From an uncultured Pelagibacteraceae bacterium (GTDB lineage: Bacteria > Pseudomonadota > Alphaproteobacteria > Pelagibacterales > Pelagibacteraceae), in contig CACNYD010000001.1 in NCBI GenBank assembly GCA_902624635.1, positions 302,766 to 366,765 of the forward strand: 64,000 nucleotides of DNA, read 5' to 3'. A program made the position numbers and the translations under genes. The notes under the pieces were generated by a model that saw nothing but the letters and a program-made list of their open reading frames with translations, had not been told where the DNA came from and ran no database searches. Positions 4,366 through 17,184 of the stretch are shown here, in pieces. Position 1 is the stretch's first letter. The number at the start of each line of letters is the position of its first letter.

Positions 4366-4956
4366 ATGAAAAAATTTATCTTGATAATATTTTTTTTAAT
4401 TTTGAATTTGCAGCTTTCAATTAAGGCTGATGATATTAAAGAATTTGAGATCGAAGGTATTAGTTTGTATCAAAGTGCCTTAAACCATTTTAGTATAAAT
4501 GAGCTTAAGGAAGACAGGGTAGATAACTATAATTCAAATAAATACACAACATCAAATATTTATCATGGACTTGAGATGTATGATTATATCCAAATAAGTT
4601 ACAAAACAAATGATCGTAATTATATAATTCAAGATATATCAGCAGCTAAAAATATAAAATATGAAGAGTGTCTTAGCCAACTTGATAGAGTAGAAAGCGA
4701 TATCTCTTCCACATATGTAAATTCATCTGAGATATCAAACGATGGAAAACTTACTTATGACCATCCTGCTGATAAATCGGGTCAAACGAAAGTAACAGAT
4801 ATAGCATGGTATTTTAGCACTGGGGATGTCATAGTGGCTCAATGTTATAACTGGCAATCAGAGTTTGGAAAAAAAAACAATTTTAAGGATTCATTGACCA
4901 TTGGTATTTCAAATAAAGACATAGATCGATGGTTTTCTAATGAGGCATATAATTGA
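4366..4956 (+). CDS. Secreted protein, paralog 1 of 6
   Basis: Signal peptide then KADDIKEFEIEGISLYQSAL; two conserved Cys (YEECL, VAQCYNW). Confidence 0.8.
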   Translation: MKKFILIIFFLILNLQLSIKADDIKEFEIEGISLYQSALNHFSINELKEDRVDNYNSNKYTTSNIYHGLEMYDYIQISYKTNDRNYIIQDISAAKNIKYEECLSQLDRVESDISSTYVNSSEISNDGKLTYDHPADKSGQTKVTDIAWYFSTGDVIVAQCYNWQSEFGKKNNFKDSLTIGISNKDIDRWFSNEAYN

Positions 4957-4971
4957 TAAAGATCCAGTTTT

Positions 4972-5538
4972 ATGAAAATATTTTTATCAATATTAATTTT
5001 AATCTTTAATATTCAATCCTGGACTAAGGCAGATGACATCAAAACGTTTGAGATAGAGGGCATCACTATTGGAGAGCCTTTATTGAGTCATTTTACAAAG
5101 GCTCAAATTAAAAATAGTAATAAAAATAATTATCCAAAAAGCAATAAATTTGTTGGAGTAGAAATCCGTTTAACAAATCCTGATCAATATGAATTAGTTC
5201 AAATTCATTATGACAGTGAACTTATTATTCACTCTGTAGCTGGAGTTGTGTTTTTGGAAAATATTAAAAACTGTTATTCGAGACAACAGGAAATAAAAAA
5301 TCAATTAAAGAGTTTATTCGAGAATTATGAAATTTTTGAGGATACATTAGTACATAGACAAGACCCAAGTGGAAAAAGTTCTTGGACGGGTGTTGAATTT
5401 TCTCTTAAAACAGGAGATGCTCTAATTCATTGCACTGATTGGTCTAAAGATTTTGAAAGAAATGGCTATAAAGATAGTTTGAGAATTGAAATTTCAACTA
5501 AAAAATTTTCAGATTTTTTACGTTATGAAGCTTATTGA
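4972..5538 (+). CDS. Secreted protein, paralog 2 of 6
   Basis: Signal peptide, KADDIKTFEIEGITIGEPLL; KNCYS and IHCTDWS. Confidence 0.8.
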   Translation: MKIFLSILILIFNIQSWTKADDIKTFEIEGITIGEPLLSHFTKAQIKNSNKNNYPKSNKFVGVEIRLTNPDQYELVQIHYDSELIIHSVAGVVFLENIKNCYSRQQEIKNQLKSLFENYEIFEDTLVHRQDPSGKSSWTGVEFSLKTGDALIHCTDWSKDFERNGYKDSLRIEISTKKFSDFLRYEAY

Positions 5539-5544
5539 TAATTT

Positions 5545-6123
5545 ATGAGAATATTTTTATTATTATTTATTTTAATATTTGGCATTCAATCCTGGACCCA
5601 GGCTGATGATATCAGAGATTTTCAAATAGAAGGTTTTAGTGTAGGAGATAAACTTTCTGAGAAAATGAGTATTAAAGAGATTGATGAAAATATAATTCCT
5701 TATTTTCAAGATCAAAGAAAGTATTATATTGTTGGAAAAACATATGATTTAAATCAATACGATCAAATCGAATTTTATATAAAGTCAAACGATAAAAGTT
5801 ATGAGATAAGAACAATTGGTGCTGGAATTTTTATTAACAACTTAAATGAATGCTTAGAGGAGAAAAAAAAAGTTGTCAAAGATTTGGATAAAGTATTTAC
5901 AAATATTAAAAAAAGATCAGGTAAGAAAAAACATGAAGCAGACCCTAAGGGAAATTCATTGCAATATATTGATCAATATGATTTTAATTATCCAAACCAT
6001 ATAAGAGTTGAATGCACAGATTATTCAGAGGAAATGCTTAATTCAGGTTTAGCTTCAAATTCTTTAAGTGTTGTAATTATGACCAAAGAAATAAATGATT
6101 GGATTTCTAGTGGTTATAAATAA
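5545..6123 (+). CDS. Secreted protein, paralog 3 of 6
   Basis: Signal peptide, QADDIRDFQIEGFSVGDKL; NECLE and VECTDYSEE. Confidence 0.8.
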   Translation: MRIFLLLFILIFGIQSWTQADDIRDFQIEGFSVGDKLSEKMSIKEIDENIIPYFQDQRKYYIVGKTYDLNQYDQIEFYIKSNDKSYEIRTIGAGIFINNLNECLEEKKKVVKDLDKVFTNIKKRSGKKKHEADPKGNSLQYIDQYDFNYPNHIRVECTDYSEEMLNSGLASNSLSVVIMTKEINDWISSGYK

Positions 6124-6142
6124 ATAATATAGACTTAGCATT

Positions 6143-6730
6143 ATGAGAATAATTTTGATAACAGTTGTATTAATTCTTAGCCTTCAATCATTTACCAAGG
6201 CTGATGATATAAGGGATTTTGAGATAGAGGGAATGACTGTAGGAGACAGTTTATTAAAATACATATCACTAAATGATATAAAAATCGCTGAAGAAAACCC
6301 ATCTTATTATAAAGATAATAAATATGTTACTGTATTTATAAAAAAAGAATTGAGCCAATATCAAGATTTGCAGGTTGTGTATAAGCCAAATGATATCGAA
6401 TATATAATACATGAAATTAAAGGAACAGTTGATTTTGAGGATAATATAGAAAAATGTAAAGTTACTAGAGAACAAATTCTAAAATCAGTTGTTAACTTGT
6501 TTCCAAATGCAGAAAACATTCCTGAAGTTAAAGAACATGAATATGATCAAAGCAAACAATCTATAGTTTACTCAACATGGTTATTTCCAAAAAAAGGAGG
6601 ATTTATACATTTAGCATGTACTGACTGGGGTGAGGAAATGTATAAAAAACATTTATGGGTAGATCATCTTGAGGTTGTAATAGGCTCCGAGGAATTTAGA
6701 AGATTTTTAACTTATGAGGCGTATAAATAA
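6143..6730 (+). CDS. Secreted protein, paralog 4 of 6
   Basis: Signal peptide, KADDIRDFEIEGMTVGDSLL; EKCKV and LACTDWGEE. Confidence 0.8.
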   Translation: MRIILITVVLILSLQSFTKADDIRDFEIEGMTVGDSLLKYISLNDIKIAEENPSYYKDNKYVTVFIKKELSQYQDLQVVYKPNDIEYIIHEIKGTVDFEDNIEKCKVTREQILKSVVNLFPNAENIPEVKEHEYDQSKQSIVYSTWLFPKKGGFIHLACTDWGEEMYKKHLWVDHLEVVIGSEEFRRFLTYEAYK

Positions 6731-6736
6731 TTTACA

Positions 6737-7315
6737 ATGAAAATACATTTAATAGCATTTATTTTAATTTTAAGTTTTCAATCTTTGACCAAGGCAGATG
6801 ATATTAGAGACTTTGAGATAGAGGGGATGAGTATTGGTGACAATGCCTTAGAGCATTTTACAAAAGATGAATTAAATAATGCAGAAAAATTTACCTATCC
6901 AAGTAAAAAATTTAGTGAAATTTTCACTCATTCTTCAAATTATGAAATATATGATTCTGTAACAATATCTTTAATGGAAGGAAAGTATAAAATTTATGGT
7001 ATCAGCGGTGTTATAGATTACAGAGAAAAAAGTTTTGAGGATTGTCTTAAAGCAAAAAATGATATTATTGATGAGTTAAAGATTACTTTCAAAAATAGTA
7101 AGATTATAGATAATGGAACTTATCAAACACCTGATTATGCTGGAGATAAAAGCAAACGCTCTCAAGTAGAGCTACTTTTAAACCAAAATGGTGGAGTTGT
7201 TTCTGTAGATTGTGTTGATTGGTCAAAAGAAGCAGAAAAAAAACATGGCTGGGGAGACAATTTAAGCATAACTTTATACTCAAAAGAATATGAAAGATTT
7301 GTTAGATCTTTATAA
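6737..7315 (+). CDS. Secreted protein, paralog 5 of 6
   Basis: Signal peptide, KADDIRDFEIEGMSIGDNAL; EDCLK and VDCVDWSKE. Confidence 0.8.
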   Translation: MKIHLIAFILILSFQSLTKADDIRDFEIEGMSIGDNALEHFTKDELNNAEKFTYPSKKFSEIFTHSSNYEIYDSVTISLMEGKYKIYGISGVIDYREKSFEDCLKAKNDIIDELKITFKNSKIIDNGTYQTPDYAGDKSKRSQVELLLNQNGGVVSVDCVDWSKEAEKKHGWGDNLSITLYSKEYERFVRSL

Positions 7316-7324
7316 TAATGTTAA

Positions 7325-7906
7325 ATGAGAATTTTATTAATAATTTTAATCATAATTTTTAATCTTACTTCTTTTACCAAGGCTGATGATATTAGAGATT
7401 TTGAAATAGAAGGTATAAGTGTTGAGGATAGTTTATTAGACTTTTTTTCGGAGGAAAAAATTATAAATTCTGAAAAAACAATTTATCCTGGAAGCAAAAA
7501 TTTTTATACAATACATATTGTTGTAGATAGCCAAAATTATGATCAAATTTCTATAGGAGTTAAAAATAATGATAAAAATTACACTGTTTATAATATTGCT
7601 GGAGATAAATTTTATGAGCAAAATCCAAAAAATTGTCTGCCCCAAATGGAAAATGTAGTTAATCAATTTGATGAAGATTTTAAGGCAGCGTTTAAAGATG
7701 AATATAAATACACTTACACTTCTTTAGCTAAAGGTAAAAGTTACGCTGAAATTGTAGATTATAATTTTCCAAATAATAGTGCAATTAGAGTATGGTGTAG
7801 CTTTTACACGGAGGAAGTAATTGAAAAATTTGATGTAGTAAATGGGCTTACTGTAAGTATAGGAACAAATAAATGGTTTAATTTTCTTAATACTGAAGCT
7901 TATTAA
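7325..7906 (+). CDS. Secreted protein, paralog 6 of 6
   Basis: Signal peptide, KADDIRDFEIEGISVEDSLL; KNCLP and VWCSFYTEE. Confidence 0.8.
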   Translation: MRILLIILIIIFNLTSFTKADDIRDFEIEGISVEDSLLDFFSEEKIINSEKTIYPGSKNFYTIHIVVDSQNYDQISIGVKNNDKNYTVYNIAGDKFYEQNPKNCLPQMENVVNQFDEDFKAAFKDEYKYTYTSLAKGKSYAEIVDYNFPNNSAIRVWCSFYTEEVIEKFDVVNGLTVSIGTNKWFNFLNTEAY

Positions 7907-7924
7907 TAACCATGCACTACCATT

Positions 7925-9421
7925 TTAAAAGCTTATAATTTTATAAAAAATTTGAGCAGTTAATAAAAAATAAATTACTGCTCCCCAAATTTTTATATTT
8001 TTATTGATCCTCATTACTTTTACTTGATTTTTTGAAATAAATTTACTGAAGGCAATACTTAAGAATACCGGAATACAACAGAATATATATGAAAGCAATA
8101 TAAACCAGTCCATATCTGTTAAATATTCAAGTCTTGGAATATCATCTTGAAAGACAAAATTATAAGCAATCAGTGCTAATAAAGCTATAATTGAAGTATT
8201 TAATCTTGCTTCATATTTTTCAGTAGGTATCCAGAGCACATACCATGCAACACATAGTATCAAAAAAACTGGCAACATTATTTTCCAAACATAATGCTCA
8301 AAATTTCTCTTTATTATAACTTCAATATCTAAAATATTTTCTTCAACAGTTTCAACTTCTTGATTATAAATATTCCACTCATCGCTTTGTAAAACCTTAC
8401 TTTTTACTGAAATACCATCATTAGGAATTTTCCAAGCCTTAAGTTTATTTACTTCAGGTTTTATAAAGTTTTCTAAATTTTTAAATACGCCTGCCTCAGG
8501 AGAGATTAAAGTAAGAGTACCAATATTACTATCATCTTCAAAATTTCGATTTGTATGATTTTTAACTCCAGTTTTTATTCTAATAATAAGTTTTTGAGTA
8601 TCAAAAGGAAATTTTTTAAAATCAAAAGACTGTCTAAAAAAACCAACTCCTTTTTCTGTTCTTAATGTCCTTAATAAATCATCATCAATAGTAATTTGAA
8701 AAACTGGATTTACTAAAACTTCTTTATTTTTAAGACCCTCTCTAACATCTGCATCGTATTTGAATTCTTCAAACTCAACAGTTTCTAATGGCCAGTTATT
8801 TTTATATCTTGCTTCTTGACAAATAGGTATCAATTGGTCTGTAAAAAATTCTGTCCCTTTTAAAGTTTTAAGCAAATCTTTTCTTACATTAGTAAAATTA
8901 GAAATGAATGACATTTCTAAAATTCCAATATTTGTATCAATATTCTGAATACTTAAAATTTTAAAGTCTTCTAATTTAAAATTATTAAATTTATAAGGTT
9001 TCGATGAAATTGAGATGGTTTTACCATTATCGAGTTGATAATTATTATTACCTGAGAAATATGTAAGATTTATTAGATCTTTATCTGAAATTTTAGATAA
9101 ATCTCGATCATTTATTTTAATGATAGCTGTTTTTGATTCCTCAAAATTTTTATTATCAAATAAGGAATATCTTACTATTGGATAATTATCTTTATTCCTT
9201 TTAATAATTACAATTTCTTTATTCCAATAAAAATCAAAATGAATTCCTGCATCATATCTTGTCTCATTATATGCTGTATTTCTTGGGTCGTTTTCTATTA
9301 AGTAATTCATTGTTTCATTGTCACAGATATTTTCTGACGAAAATGAAACTGAGGAAAAAAGAATAACTTTACTAAAGAATATACAAAGTAAAGCATATTT
9401 AATTATATTTTTAATTTTCAC
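7925..9421 (-). CDS. Pentameric ligand-gated ion channel (Cys-loop/GLIC-like) with extra N-terminal region
   Basis: Signal peptide; ECD motif SFDFKKFPFDTQKLII; M1 WKIMLPVFLILCVAW; M2-M3 YEARLNTSIIALLALIAYNFVFQDDIPRLEYLTDMDWFILLSYIF; C-terminal M4. Confidence 0.88.
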   Translation of the reverse strand: MKIKNIIKYALLCIFFSKVILFSSVSFSSENICDNETMNYLIENDPRNTAYNETRYDAGIHFDFYWNKEIVIIKRNKDNYPIVRYSLFDNKNFEESKTAIIKINDRDLSKISDKDLINLTYFSGNNNYQLDNGKTISISSKPYKFNNFKLEDFKILSIQNIDTNIGILEMSFISNFTNVRKDLLKTLKGTEFFTDQLIPICQEARYKNNWPLETVEFEEFKYDADVREGLKNKEVLVNPVFQITIDDDLLRTLRTEKGVGFFRQSFDFKKFPFDTQKLIIRIKTGVKNHTNRNFEDDSNIGTLTLISPEAGVFKNLENFIKPEVNKLKAWKIPNDGISVKSKVLQSDEWNIYNQEVETVEENILDIEVIIKRNFEHYVWKIMLPVFLILCVAWYVLWIPTEKYEARLNTSIIALLALIAYNFVFQDDIPRLEYLTDMDWFILLSYIFCCIPVFLSIAFSKFISKNQVKVMRINKNIKIWGAVIYFLLTAQIFYKIISF

Positions 9422-9468
9422 AAATTTAATTTAATTATTTATAATAAAGATGTAAATTAAAGAATTAA

Positions 9469-9933
9469 ATGGCTAAAATTAGAAAAATTGCTTCGATAGA
9501 AAACGGAATAATGCAAGTTTTGAAGATCTTAGATGAGAATGAAGTTCAAGATACTATAGGGAAAAGTTCATCTTATTTGAGAAAATGTAGTGATCCTTCT
9601 CAACAACAACAAATTGATCATAACGACTCTATTAAGCTCGATATTGCTTGCATTAAAAAAGGGAAGGCGCCCCCCTTGTTTATCGCTCATGAATATATTG
9701 TGATAAATGAGTCTGATAATTTAGATTCTCATAAACAAAATGATATCGATGAAATGTTAGTCAAATCAACAATTCTTCATGGAAAACTTACAGAAGTTGT
9801 AAAATTAGCTGAGGATCCAAAAAGCGATAGAGGTATGGAAATATCAAAATTAGAAAAAAAAGAAATTATGGAAGCTATTAAAAACCTAGAAGATAAGATA
9901 ATGAAAATTAAAATTACTGTAGATCAAAAATAA
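9469..9933 (+). CDS. Hypothetical protein, possibly phage-type regulator-like
   Basis: 154 aa complete ORF, divergent from the channel gene; weak family impression only. Confidence 0.55.
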   Translation: MAKIRKIASIENGIMQVLKILDENEVQDTIGKSSSYLRKCSDPSQQQQIDHNDSIKLDIACIKKGKAPPLFIAHEYIVINESDNLDSHKQNDIDEMLVKSTILHGKLTEVVKLAEDPKSDRGMEISKLEKKEIMEAIKNLEDKIMKIKITVDQK

Positions 9934-9936
9934 ATT

Positions 9937-11223
9937 TTAGAGATTTTCAAGTTTGTCCCACTCACCGTCTTCATTATAATCATATGCAATAACATCAGGT
10001 TTACCATCTTCATCCTCGTCTATTTCCGCCTCATCAGCATTACCATTATTATTTGTATCAAATAATATTACCTCAAAATTTCCATCTTCATTTTTATCAA
10101 TAGCAACTATTTCTATAACGCCATCTTCATCTTTGTCTGCATAAGCCACTTCGTAAATATTATTATTATTATCATCTACAAGCCATGCATCAATTTTACC
10201 ATTACCGTTAATATCCACTTCTCTTGCATCTGATAAATCTATTGAGCCTTTTTCAGAAGTTTTCTTTTTCTTTTTTTTTATCCAGGTATTACCTTTATCT
10301 TTCTTTTTAATGTAATTACTTTTCTTTTTTTTAATCGGTTTTGGTTTTTCATTAATAAAATCAATGACATCATTTACAGCTATTGCAAAATTTAAACCTT
10401 CACCTTCTGCTGTAAAAGTGTTTACTCCAATTAATTGCTTTTCTTTATTAAACAAAGGTCCACCAGAATTTCCAGGATTTATATTTGCATCTGTTTGAAT
10501 AACATTCGCTGAGTGTCTAGACCCTTTATAACTCCAATCATAATTAGGTCTTACCTGATTTACAAATCCAGGAGAAAATGTCCAAAGAAGTCCCTCAGGA
10601 TGGCCCATAGCAAATACGTTTTGTCCAGGTTTGACCTGTGAAAATTTACCATAATTCACTGGCTTAATTTTAAGTGGTAACTTTTCAACCTTCAACATGG
10701 CCAAATCTTTAGTTTTGTTAATCTTTATTACTTGTGCATTATAAGAGTCAACTTTATTTATTAAAAAATTTTCGTCTACCATAGTTTTAGGTTTTAACCA
10801 GACTTTCAAACTATCGTTGTTCTCAATTACATGCCAATTAGTAATTATTTTTAATTCTCCTTTGTCTTTGATTACAAAACCAGAACCCATTCCTCTTAAT
10901 TTTGATTTTTTTAAATTTCCAATGAATACAACACTTTCAATATATTGCTCATAAAGCTCTTCAGCACCTTTATATTTTGGTTTGCTTCTATTTTTATTAT
11001 TTGTCTGTATTTCTGTAGTTTTTTCGATTAAAGCTTCATTAAGATTTTTGACACTACCTAAAAGATTTTCTGCATTCTCAGCATCAACCAGATTTGTATC
11101 ATTTACTTTATAAGATGCTTGGGAAACAATTCTAAAATCATTTATATTTCTTATATCAAAGGCGTAAACATTGTATGAAAAAAAAATAAGAAATAACAAA
11201 TATAAATTTAAAAAAAATTTCAT
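9937..11223 (-). CDS. Secreted trypsin-like serine protease with C-terminal EF-loop-like repeats
   Basis: Signal peptide from start at 11223; triad contexts ITNWHVIEN, TKDLAMLKV, GNSGGPLF; Lys-rich linker; D-x-N-x-D-G repeats. Confidence 0.88.
   Translation of the reverse strand: MKFFLNLYLLFLIFFSYNVYAFDIRNINDFRIVSQASYKVNDTNLVDAENAENLLGSVKNLNEALIEKTTEIQTNNKNRSKPKYKGAEELYEQYIESVVFIGNLKKSKLRGMGSGFVIKDKGELKIITNWHVIENNDSLKVWLKPKTMVDENFLINKVDSYNAQVIKINKTKDLAMLKVEKLPLKIKPVNYGKFSQVKPGQNVFAMGHPEGLLWTFSPGFVNQVRPNYDWSYKGSRHSANVIQTDANINPGNSGGPLFNKEKQLIGVNTFTAEGEGLNFAIAVNDVIDFINEKPKPIKKKKSNYIKKKDKGNTWIKKKKKKTSEKGSIDLSDAREVDINGNGKIDAWLVDDNNNNIYEVAYADKDEDGVIEIVAIDKNEDGNFEVILFDTNNNGNADEAEIDEDEDGKPDVIAYDYNEDGEWDKLENL
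9943..10215 (-). repeat. Seven tandem 13-residue (39-bp) EF-loop-like repeats in the protease C-terminus
   Basis: DINGNGKIDAWLV/DDNNNNIYEVAYA/DKDEDGVIEIVAI/DKNEDGNFEVILF/DTNNNGNADEAEI/DEDEDGKPDVIAY/DYNEDGEWDKLEN. Confidence 0.9.
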
Positions 11224-11225
11224 AT

Positions 11226-12623
11226 CTAAGATTTTGGTATGAATATAAAGTCGCCGTTCCCATGATTCCATTTATTCATGGGTCTGTAAAATGGAGTTTG
11301 TTTGCCACCCAACTCATCACTCACTCTCATATATATGTTATGAAGTCTTATTGGTGAATCTGCGTTTTCTAATTCTCTAATAATAATTTTTGCAAAATTT
11401 GAATTCCCTTTCCCTGGTTCCTCAACAAACTCATCATTTCCTGATGCCATCACTATCGCAGCTCTATTTTTTAATAATTTTTCATAAGTTAAATTTTTAT
11501 TATTAATTTTGTCGGAACCCTTTACAGCAAACCAACAAGAATCCACTAATAATGCTAAATGAGTCGATGGTATTTCTGGGCTAATATCACCTTCAAATGA
11601 TGATGTTAAATCATCTATGTTGAACCAATTTCTTTTATTGTTTTTGGATCCATTTACAGGTATCCAATATCTCTCATTCTCTACTTTTTCACCATGCCCA
11701 GAATAATAAATTAATACATAATCATTATCAGTAACCAAATCTTTTAACTCGTCAATTTTATCAAAAAACTCATCTCTAGTAACATCTATACCTGTAATAA
11801 CTTTTTCAAATTTGTACTTAGATTTTAAAATCTTGGAAAGTTTAATAACGTCATTTTTAGGTGATACTAAATCAGCGTATTTTCCTTTAGTGTGATAATC
11901 TGAATTTCCAATCAATAATGCGTAATATTTACCAAACGGATTAAGTGGAGCTGGTCTAGAAGTTTCATTTATTTCAGCAAAATCCTCATATATCTTATTT
12001 TTCTCAAATAACTTAGCAATTTCTTCTTTTTGCGAATGAACGTCGACAAAATACCTTTCTTTACCATCAGCTGTGTTAACACTGCCGGAACCTGAATTTC
12101 CAGATTGACTGGTTTGTCCTGTAAATTTTATTCCATTAGTACATTCACCAGAAATTTGTGACATTAACATGTTTGCATCTGCAAATTTAACAGTCGAAGC
12201 TACTTTACATGTAGTTTCTCCATCATTTAAATAAGCAAATCCTTTGTTCGTTTCATAATAACCGTTAATGAGTTTTGAATTTATATCAGGTAAAACAAAT
12301 CCATAAATTAACGAAGATCTTGAACCATTATTAGCTTGAAAGTAAATTGCACCATCGGGAAGATCTTTTATATTGGCAATATACTTATCTTTTGATTTTT
12401 TTTTAATCCAAGATTTAACCTCTTTAGTAATTTTTTTTTCTTCTTTTTTATACTTCTTTTTATTTTCTTTAATTTTTTTCTTTATCCATGTTGATGTTTT
12501 TTTATCAGTTAATTTCTCAACTTTTTCATCTTTATCTTTTTTTTTTATCCAAGTATTTTCAGATTGAGCAAAAGTTATTGTTCCAAGAAAAATTACAATA
12601 ATTAGTAATATTTTTTTGATCAT
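11226..12623 (-). CDS. Secreted caspase-like (peptidase C14 / metacaspase-like) protein with N-terminal WIKKK repeats
   Basis: Signal peptide; catalytic His in LIYYSGHGE, Cys in LALLVDSCWF; YALLIGNSDY. Confidence 0.88.
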   Translation of the reverse strand: MIKKILLIIVIFLGTITFAQSENTWIKKKDKDEKVEKLTDKKTSTWIKKKIKENKKKYKKEEKKITKEVKSWIKKKSKDKYIANIKDLPDGAIYFQANNGSRSSLIYGFVLPDINSKLINGYYETNKGFAYLNDGETTCKVASTVKFADANMLMSQISGECTNGIKFTGQTSQSGNSGSGSVNTADGKERYFVDVHSQKEEIAKLFEKNKIYEDFAEINETSRPAPLNPFGKYYALLIGNSDYHTKGKYADLVSPKNDVIKLSKILKSKYKFEKVITGIDVTRDEFFDKIDELKDLVTDNDYVLIYYSGHGEKVENERYWIPVNGSKNNKRNWFNIDDLTSSFEGDISPEIPSTHLALLVDSCWFAVKGSDKINNKNLTYEKLLKNRAAIVMASGNDEFVEEPGKGNSNFAKIIIRELENADSPIRLHNIYMRVSDELGGKQTPFYRPMNKWNHGNGDFIFIPKS

Positions 12624-15427: not shown

Positions 15428-16363
15428 ATGATTAAAAAAATTCTTATAATCCTAATTTCAACAATTTTTATCTCAAACGCTAATGCAAAAGATTTACCAG
15501 AAGGTTATCCTGAATGTTGGCAAGATACAGATAATCCAGTAAATATTAATGTTAGACCATTAAATCAAAATCAAGCTAATATGGGTCAAAGTAAAGATCT
15601 ATTCCTTCCTCAAAACTCAAAGGTTGGTCATAAATTTATCCTAATTGATTTTACTTCGCCTCTTAAAAAAGCTCAAATAGATTGGATACAAAAAAGAGTA
15701 TTTGGAAAACCTTTGGCTAATACTACTCCACCATACTGGAGGGTCTCATACATGAAAATTGATGACACTAAAGTTCAGTCTCAAGAAATTGCTTATTCTC
15801 ATGGCAGAATGAAAACAGGAAAAAAATCAAAGTATAAAGGTGAAAAAACAAATTCAGGTTGTGAGGGAGATAAACAAATTCAAATTGCATATAAGGCTTG
15901 GGCGGATATTAACAAATCTTTTGAGACTAAATTTTTAAAAGATTATGAGTCTGAAGCAAATAGAAGTTTAATATTTGAGTATTTATTCCATATCTTAAGA
16001 GAACCTAGCTCAGATTTTACTTCAGAATATCCTATAAGAGAGCTTGTGATTGTCTCAGATTTAATGCAACACTCTAAAAGATTTTCATTCTACAGTCATT
16101 GTAAAACTGAATTATCGAATGTACCTAACAAATGCAGATCCTTTGAAAATTTGCTAAAGAAAACCAAAGTAAAAAATTATATTGATGATAGAAAGCCAAA
16201 GGCTGAAACTTTAAAAAATTTGAAAGTAACAATTCTTTATATAAATCATGATTATGAAACTCGAGATGGATTATCTAGTTCGCTGGTTGCTCTTTGGGAA
16301 GATTTATTTAAGTATATAGGAGTAACGAACTATGAGATTATTAAACAACTAGATATAGATTAA
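15428..16363 (+). CDS. Exported protein, possibly VWA-like fold
   Basis: Signal peptide from start at 15428; FILIDFTSPL, RELVIVSDLMQHS and LKVTILYINHD strand-like segments. Confidence 0.55.
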   Translation: MIKKILIILISTIFISNANAKDLPEGYPECWQDTDNPVNINVRPLNQNQANMGQSKDLFLPQNSKVGHKFILIDFTSPLKKAQIDWIQKRVFGKPLANTTPPYWRVSYMKIDDTKVQSQEIAYSHGRMKTGKKSKYKGEKTNSGCEGDKQIQIAYKAWADINKSFETKFLKDYESEANRSLIFEYLFHILREPSSDFTSEYPIRELVIVSDLMQHSKRFSFYSHCKTELSNVPNKCRSFENLLKKTKVKNYIDDRKPKAETLKNLKVTILYINHDYETRDGLSSSLVALWEDLFKYIGVTNYEIIKQLDID

Positions 16364-17184
16364 TGTTTTCATCGCCATTATTTATTTATCTTGCAACTAT
16401 AATACCGCCTATTCTTCTTGGAGTAATTATTTGGAAATCTGACAAATTTCCAGAACCAGGAAAATTTCTAGTGACATCTTTTATGTTAGGTGTCTCAATT
16501 TTTTTACCATTAGATTTTTTAATTATTTTTGCAGAAGATCATCTGGCACCTTTTCTTGGATTAAATTTAGACTCAATTGATAATTGGAGAGATGGTGGAG
16601 AATTTCCGTCAGGAGAGTATGCTTTTCTTCACTTTTTTAGAGCAGCATATTTAGAGGAGGGATTAAAATTTGCTTTTTTAATTTTTGTTTGCGTGAGATT
16701 GGATGCTCTAAATGAACCAATTGATGCAATAGTTTACGGCGCTGCTATTGGATTAGGTTACGCTGCAATGGAAAATTTAGGTTATTTGTATCTTGATAAA
16801 GCGTGGTCATTAGAAACGGTTAAAGTACGTTATTATCCTTTAGTTATGCATCTTGGCTTTGGTGTTGTTATGGGTTGGTTATTAAGTCAAAGTTTATTTG
16901 ATGAACCTAGTAAGTTTAAAAGAAGATTTTTGATTGTGCTTTCATTATTAATTCCCGTGATTTATCACGGAACTTATAATTATTATGGAACAGCAGATAT
17001 ATTTCCAATTCTTACTTTAATTTTAATCGCTTCAATTATTTATTGGGCACGAAGAGAGCAATTAAAAAAAATAACTGAAGGAGAAGATAAAGAAGTACCA
17101 CTAACGTCAGATATTACTATTTCTTATGGCTTGTCATTAGTAGTAGTTTCAATTGTAGTAATTTCTGCTATTCTTTATTCATAA
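16363..17184 (+). CDS. PrsW family intramembrane metalloprotease-like protein
   Basis: AYLEEGLKFAFL, AAMENLGYL, VMHLGFGVVMG, VIYHGTYNY motifs within TM helices. Confidence 0.8.
   Translation: MFSSPLFIYLATIIPPILLGVIIWKSDKFPEPGKFLVTSFMLGVSIFLPLDFLIIFAEDHLAPFLGLNLDSIDNWRDGGEFPSGEYAFLHFFRAAYLEEGLKFAFLIFVCVRLDALNEPIDAIVYGAAIGLGYAAMENLGYLYLDKAWSLETVKVRYYPLVMHLGFGVVMGWLLSQSLFDEPSKFKRRFLIVLSLLIPVIYHGTYNYYGTADIFPILTLILIASIIYWARREQLKKITEGEDKEVPLTSDITISYGLSLVVVSIVVISAILYS

Follow-up and report, generated by a model that had tools for sequence, protein, structure and literature searches.

The window, the 64,000-nucleotide stretch of DNA analysed here, belongs to a SAR11 genome (Pelagibacteraceae) of 958,604 bases in 20 contigs, which is 79% complete. 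It contains two neighbouring genes on the minus strand, assigned from open reading frames, domain and structure matches and alignments: one encodes a C14 caspase-family peptidase, similar to MALT1 and the orthocaspases and 465 amino acids long (11226–12623, minus strand), and the other an HtrA/Deg-like S1 serine protease of 428 amino acids (9937–11223, minus strand). Both frames were found to be present and co-directional when the open reading frames of the window were checked, with the protease downstream. As a first-pass annotation of this DNA had stated, the genes are separated by 2 nt, the caspase stop codon being at 11226–11228 and the natural ATG of the protease at 11221–11223. The ORF caller gives a longer protease start, at 11271 and inside the caspase gene, which we judged to be the less likely one. 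Signal peptides can be read by eye at both N-termini, with cuts between FAQS and ENTW and between NVYA and FDIR, and on this reading both proteins are predicted to be exported, again as first annotated.

Domain structure of the two proteins and their neighbours

The caspase consists, in order, of the signal peptide, a disordered, Lys-rich arm in which WIKKK occurs three times, a β domain and the C14 domain. Pfam identifies Peptidase_C14 at residues 234–446 (E = 1.2e-20; 11286–11924, minus strand), and the domain scores well above the curated cut-off (PF00656, 74.7 bits against 21.4). Within it, the catalytic dyad His310/Cys363 and the acidic residues Asp258 and Asp361 are invariant in an alignment of 19 homologues; from general knowledge of metacaspases, we take the two Asp residues to belong to the specificity pocket. 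Profile comparison gave matches to MALT1 (1e-14) and to metacaspases (about 2e-5), and the best solved-structure matches of the caspase model are to MALT1. The β domain (residues 91–222; 11958–12353, minus strand) is all-β and variable, as seen from the alignment, the predicted structure and a comparison of identities, and has nearly invariant Cys residues at 139 and 161. Because the protein is MALT1/orthocaspase-like and carries the acidic-pocket residues, it could cut Lys tracts. All characterised C14 members except true caspases prefer to cut after Arg/Lys (PMC5756287), and the window caspase should likewise prefer Lys/Arg.

In the serine protease, Pfam identifies Trypsin_2 at residues 113–267 (E = 1.9e-27), and the S1 catalytic region as a whole, delimited by Pfam, alignment and predicted structure, covers residues 96–292 (10348–10938, minus strand). 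Its triad, His131/Asp173/Ser253, is invariant in the protease alignment, so that the active sites named in the first-pass annotation hold for both enzymes. The domain matches HtrA/Deg proteins, including DegS-family structures, and is an HtrA-type catalytic domain with the triad complete. Pfam finds no match to PDZ in the protein; its position is occupied by seven 13-residue repeats of the form DxNxDGxxD/E, calcium-binding-like and in exact register (residues 337–427; 9943–10215, minus strand; alignment, predicted structure and repeat check). Trypsin owes its specificity for Lys/Arg to an Asp at Ser-6 (position 189). The corresponding residue is Asn, Ala, Ser or Pro in 23/23 homologues and never Asp, and a trypsin-like Lys/Arg specificity was rejected on this ground. 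The protease is therefore, being HtrA/Deg-like and lacking this Asp, a poor candidate for cutting Lys tracts. Cutting after Lys/Arg, which the first-pass annotation had expected of both enzymes, accordingly suits a MALT1-like caspase (PMC5756287) but not the serine protease. We note that the genome also encodes a separate HtrA-type homologue, in a 478-residue frame at G000:C1:251636.

Two further genes near the pair are conserved neighbours. The nearer (9469–9933, plus strand) encodes a 154-residue protein that is HTH-like by eye, had no family match in profile searches, and faces the pair in most syntenic relatives. The other (7925–9421, minus strand) encodes a pentameric ligand-gated ion channel related to ELIC, GLIC and DeCLIC, as judged from neighbour comparison and family matches. 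Beyond these, about six small secreted paralogues (DDIRDFEIEGMSIGDSLL type) are arrayed in tandem (about 4366–7906, plus strand), and the two that were tested gave no Pfam match; a gene for a PrsW-family intramembrane metalloprotease (16363–17184, plus strand) is located about 3.7 kb away from that of the caspase. A phage or plasmid origin of the pair was rejected, as no full-length relatives were found and none occurred in viral contigs.

Conservation of the pair and of the [WY]IxKK motif

The first-pass annotation had proposed looking for the pair in other genomes, where its adjacency is indeed conserved. A species-wide genome collection yielded 29 loci encoding relatives of the serine protease; all are from SAR11 but one, a record named only ‘Proteobacteria’. 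The caspase side falls at a contig edge in three (L102, L104 and L106); in 25 of the 26 loci not cut by a contig end, a caspase gene is directly adjacent, the exception being L113, which has the serine protease without an adjacent caspase. The loci show two architectures. In architecture A, which is that of the window, the genes are co-directional with the caspase first and a spacing of −4 to +10 nt, usually followed by the 154-residue gene on the opposite strand and the channel gene. In architecture B (L110, L111, L112 and L114), the pair is convergent and a second caspase gene lies nearby; the caspase has MORN repeats, as shown for L046, and directly upstream of its gene are a gene for an ECF-type sigma factor and an anti-sigma-like gene (anti-sigma match 1e-4). 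At L046 (9277–12657), the sigma, anti-sigma-like and MORN-repeat caspase genes form a row that is convergent to the serine protease.

The channel was considered as an obligate part of the locus and rejected, since G127 and the convergent loci have no close channel and the channel also occurs without the pair. In G019, G042, G161 and G173, the channel and 154-residue genes have matches that lie a few kb from each other on one contig, without any caspase. Many co-directional caspase loci have small genes of the DDIRDFEIEGMSIGDSLL type in their vicinity; none was found at the convergent loci. At L044 (722–4036) the caspase gene is seemingly split around the 154-residue and serine protease genes, in the manner of an inversion; as this locus is at a contig end, an assembly error is possible, and a search for the inverted repeats of a programmed inversion there found weak, AT-rich ones only.

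Across the genus, C14 is present in 13/201 genomes, and 6/6 genomes with a serine protease of the pair type also have a C14 gene (p = 2e-8, uncorrected for kinship). A second type of S1 protease, which carries TPR repeats and was searched for in 181 genomes, has caspase genes close by in G135, G189, G227 and G229. Taking both S1 types together, a caspase is present in 11/12 genomes (Fisher p ~ 2e-15, an approximate value uncorrected for kinship). In 30 other alphaproteobacterial genomes, no S1 gene was found within about 1.5 kb of the caspase loci. Several of the caspases in these genomes look exported, so an exported C14 protein is not in itself new. Large secreted caspases of up to 1249 residues also occur in tandem (L048 8848–10905, L050 and L053), several of them starting MKRLLAYLF.

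The arm of the window caspase contains WIKKK three times: at residues 25–29 (12537–12551), just past the predicted signal-peptide cut, at residues 46–50 (12474–12488), and at residues 72–76 (12396–12410), where most aligned relatives have WITKK. In the protease, motif search and predicted structure place YIKKK at residues 304–308 (10300–10314) and a single WIKKK at residues 314–318 (10270–10284) of the disordered linker; all five are encoded on the minus strand. Sharing of WIKKK by Lys-rich linkers had been pointed out in the first-pass annotation, and the predicted structures of both proteins agree that these regions are disordered, with pLDDT mostly below 50. The DNA pattern of the motif has 4 matches in the window against 0.14 expected, and composition-preserving shuffles reach the observed counts in 0/100,000 cases for the caspase arm and 33/100,000 (0.033%) for the linker. 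The gene pair and the WIKKK motif are thus both confirmed as real.

At least three copies of [WY][IL]xKK are present in 17/17 architecture-A caspases whose N-terminus is complete, and 19/19 aligned architecture-A serine proteases have two or three. The motif is jointly absent from the other architecture: it was not found in four other aligned proteases (three of architecture B, plus L113), nor was W[IVL]xKK seen in architecture-B caspases. In the alignments of both proteins, the aromatic residue (Trp or Tyr) and the Ile vary no more than the Lys residues do, which shows selection for a specific short motif and not merely for a high content of Lys. It cannot be essential to pairing as such, because the convergent architecture keeps the pair without it; and its joint presence or absence makes weak statistics, because the two architectures could represent a single evolutionary change.

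Among the matches examined across the window genome, the caspase–protease pair is the sole case of repeated in-frame use. That WIKKK might be a common motif of secreted proteins in this genome was rejected, since each of the other in-frame matches that were read is a lone copy in an ordinary protein. Tandem matches in the 201 genomes of the genus are the caspases of G000, G058 and G127, a 105-residue membrane protein in G135, and a few in other genomes that look unrelated by eye. Some other caspases have a mature part that begins EWITKK (L048 15408–17390, L057).

Exchange of the caspase body

Compared pair by pair, the serine protease, the channel and the 154-residue protein show correlated identities (rho 0.75–0.79), with which those of the caspase correlate only weakly (0.09–0.32). 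The variation is unevenly distributed within the pair. Median identity is 76% in the caspase arm and 82% in the protease linker, the constant parts, and 36% in the β domain, 55% in p20 and 41% in the C-terminus, the variable parts of the caspase. The clearest example is the comparison of L099 with L100, which have 82–96% DNA identity around and beyond the caspase gene and 47–69% through its body, starting about 200 nt past the start; the drop thus falls inside the gene. The caspase gene of L100 (about 8520–9981) has a frameshift in the arm, at the A-rich run of the first WITKKK motif, for which sequencing error or slippage is possible. The reverse case is given by G058 and L094, whose caspases are 94% identical and whose proteases are 78% identical.

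Trees of the two genes are in strong conflict. The caspase-body data reject an L099+L100 clade (AU p = 5e-81), the protease data reject the caspase pairing L094+L100 (AU p = 1e-5), and a test of L093+L095 was weak (p = 0.02), all these values being optimistic because the clades were chosen after the identities were known; log-likelihood gaps are large, at 181–292, for the two tests on caspase data and for L094+L100. The caspase body has thus been swapped between otherwise syntenic loci, with the tagged N-terminal arm and the protease remaining constant. Such an exchange is a signature of a recognition or conflict system. Both this cassette-like exchange and the wider locus were missed by the first-pass annotation.

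A proposed module and its relation to known systems

A functional coupling of the two proteases is well supported and probable. The best overall explanation, to which we give about an even chance, is a lineage-specific, exported two-protease module of the SAR11 envelope. Given the gene pairing, the shared motif with its joint absence from the other architecture, the cassette exchange and the domain types, all read from the sequences, we infer the physical coupling, direction of cleavage, trigger and end result of such a module as follows. A C14 caspase and a PDZ-less HtrA/Deg-type protease would be made from overlapping or nearly touching genes and exported, and would be brought together or tied through the common [WY]IxKK, with three copies on the constant arm of the caspase and two on the protease linker. 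The β domain and catalytic body of the caspase would act as a variable, exchangeable sensor or initiator, and the serine protease as its constant partner. Upon a trigger in the envelope, the caspase would cut, in a one-way step, at or near its own Lys tracts and those of the protease linker; the cut in the linker would separate the S1 domain from the calcium-binding-like repeats and so alter the place or mode of S1 action. This one-way cut seems the likeliest chemical step, and that the caspase cuts the [WY]IxKK tracts is proposed tentatively.

An almost equal rival as regards the motif, which we consider quite plausible at somewhat below an even chance, is that it serves mainly for docking or as a membrane-surface tag: both enzymes would use the aromatic–Ile–Lys–Lys sequence to attach to one putative periplasmic partner, or to the anionic surface of the membrane, and would act next to one another on other substrates. 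The constancy of Trp/Tyr and Ile goes beyond the needs of a Lys-specific cut, and about four residues separate the start of the first copy from the predicted signal-peptide cut. Moreover, in a different caspase-bearing genome, a gene for a TPR-type S1 protease is adjoined by that of the 105-residue secreted protein (L049 12727–13044, plus strand), made up of four W[IV]xKK/RK repeats with a hydrophobic segment at its C-terminus. However, an aromatic P4 with a hydrophobic P3 can also be selected by a protease.

Exchange of the caspase body between constant flanks, together with the patchy presence of C14 in the genus, would suit a conflict module of the envelope, anti-phage or interbacterial, in which the exchanged body would serve to recognise intruders of varying kinds and the two proteases would harm the envelope or kill the cell. 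Cytoplasmic bacterial systems with caspase or trypsin-like effectors are known (PMC8195603, PMC12799240). Export is unlike these systems, however; no nuclease, gasdermin, NTPase or sensor gene was recognised among the neighbours read, a defence-system library gave generic caspase- and trypsin-domain matches only, and no relatives were found in viral contigs, so we regard this reading as doubtful. We consider rather unlikely the more specific idea of a periplasmic, polymorphic recognition or immune module of free-living, streamlined ocean bacteria, in which exchangeable caspase bodies on a constant [WY]IxKK arm would signal to a constant HtrA-type executioner.

The sigma and anti-sigma-like genes upstream of the MORN-caspase in the convergent architecture, the matches of the S1 domain to DegS-family structures and the PrsW-type gene in the window could together indicate envelope stress regulation, with the pair taking part in DegS-like proteolysis of an anti-sigma factor. 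Yet the window pair and the other co-directional loci showed no neighbouring sigma/anti-sigma pair, the anti-sigma match is weak and the protease has no PDZ domain, which makes this explanation unlikely. The adjacency could in principle be mere inherited synteny of a small genome with no joint function, given that in one family the pair is inherited together with the 154-residue gene and the channel gene; but pairing is kept in two architectures with different flanks and orientations, the second S1 type pairs with caspases too, and the caspase loci of the 30 other alphaproteobacterial genomes have no S1 gene nearby, so this is very unlikely. Least probable of all is the reciprocal zymogen cascade proposed in the first-pass annotation, in which the two proteases would activate one another at their Lys tracts: both proteins do have Lys-rich linkers and the caspase should prefer Lys/Arg (PMC5756287), but cutting of Lys tracts is not expected of an HtrA/Deg-type protease with Asp at Ser-6 in 0/23 homologues, neither linker is positioned like a classical S1 activation peptide, and the conserved aromatic and Ile residues fit docking equally well.

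If the proposed two-protease module is correct, one of the most abundant groups of bacteria would have caspase-type signalling in its envelope, and this in a small-genome lineage in which spare genes are rare; the pair makes testable both the substrates of the caspase and what drives its exchange. To our knowledge, bacterial caspases and trypsin-like proteases of known role act inside the cell, mostly against phages. Literature searches on SAR11 caspases gave no description of the pair, and the first-pass annotation, too, did not know of it as a described system.

Like the MALT1 paracaspase and bacterial orthocaspases of family C14, the window caspase has the caspase fold, the His/Cys dyad and the acidic-pocket Asp; unlike them, it has a signal peptide, a Lys-rich [WY]IxKK arm and a variable β domain, and no death or Ig domain was recognised in it. 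The protease shares with HtrA/Deg proteins (DegP, DegS and plant Deg1) export and an S1 domain of HtrA catalytic type, but in place of PDZ has a disordered, motif-bearing linker and the seven 13-residue DxNxDG repeats. Caspase- and trypsin-like peptidases are effectors in the EACC1 bacterial conflict systems (PMC8195603), and among the NCBIfam caspase domain models the closest is the EACC1-associated NF047832, at 52.5 bits and far under its cut-off of 140; the window pair differs in its predicted export, and no EACC1, EAD or NTPase gene was recognised among the neighbours read. In the antiphage system Canu (CanABC), a MALT1-like bacterial caspase is in an operon with a nuclease that it activates (PMC12799240). 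The window pair resembles Canu in joining a MALT1-like caspase by operon to a second enzyme, activation of the partner being a feature of Canu. It differs in that the partner is a serine protease and not an MBL-fold nuclease, no gene for which is adjacent (the neighbours being the S1 protease, the 154-residue protein, the channel and small proteins), and in that both proteins are predicted to be exported. Set beside these systems, the pair appears to be a two-enzyme envelope module not described before, composed of a fast-exchanging caspase and a stable HtrA-like protease that carry a common Lys-rich tag.
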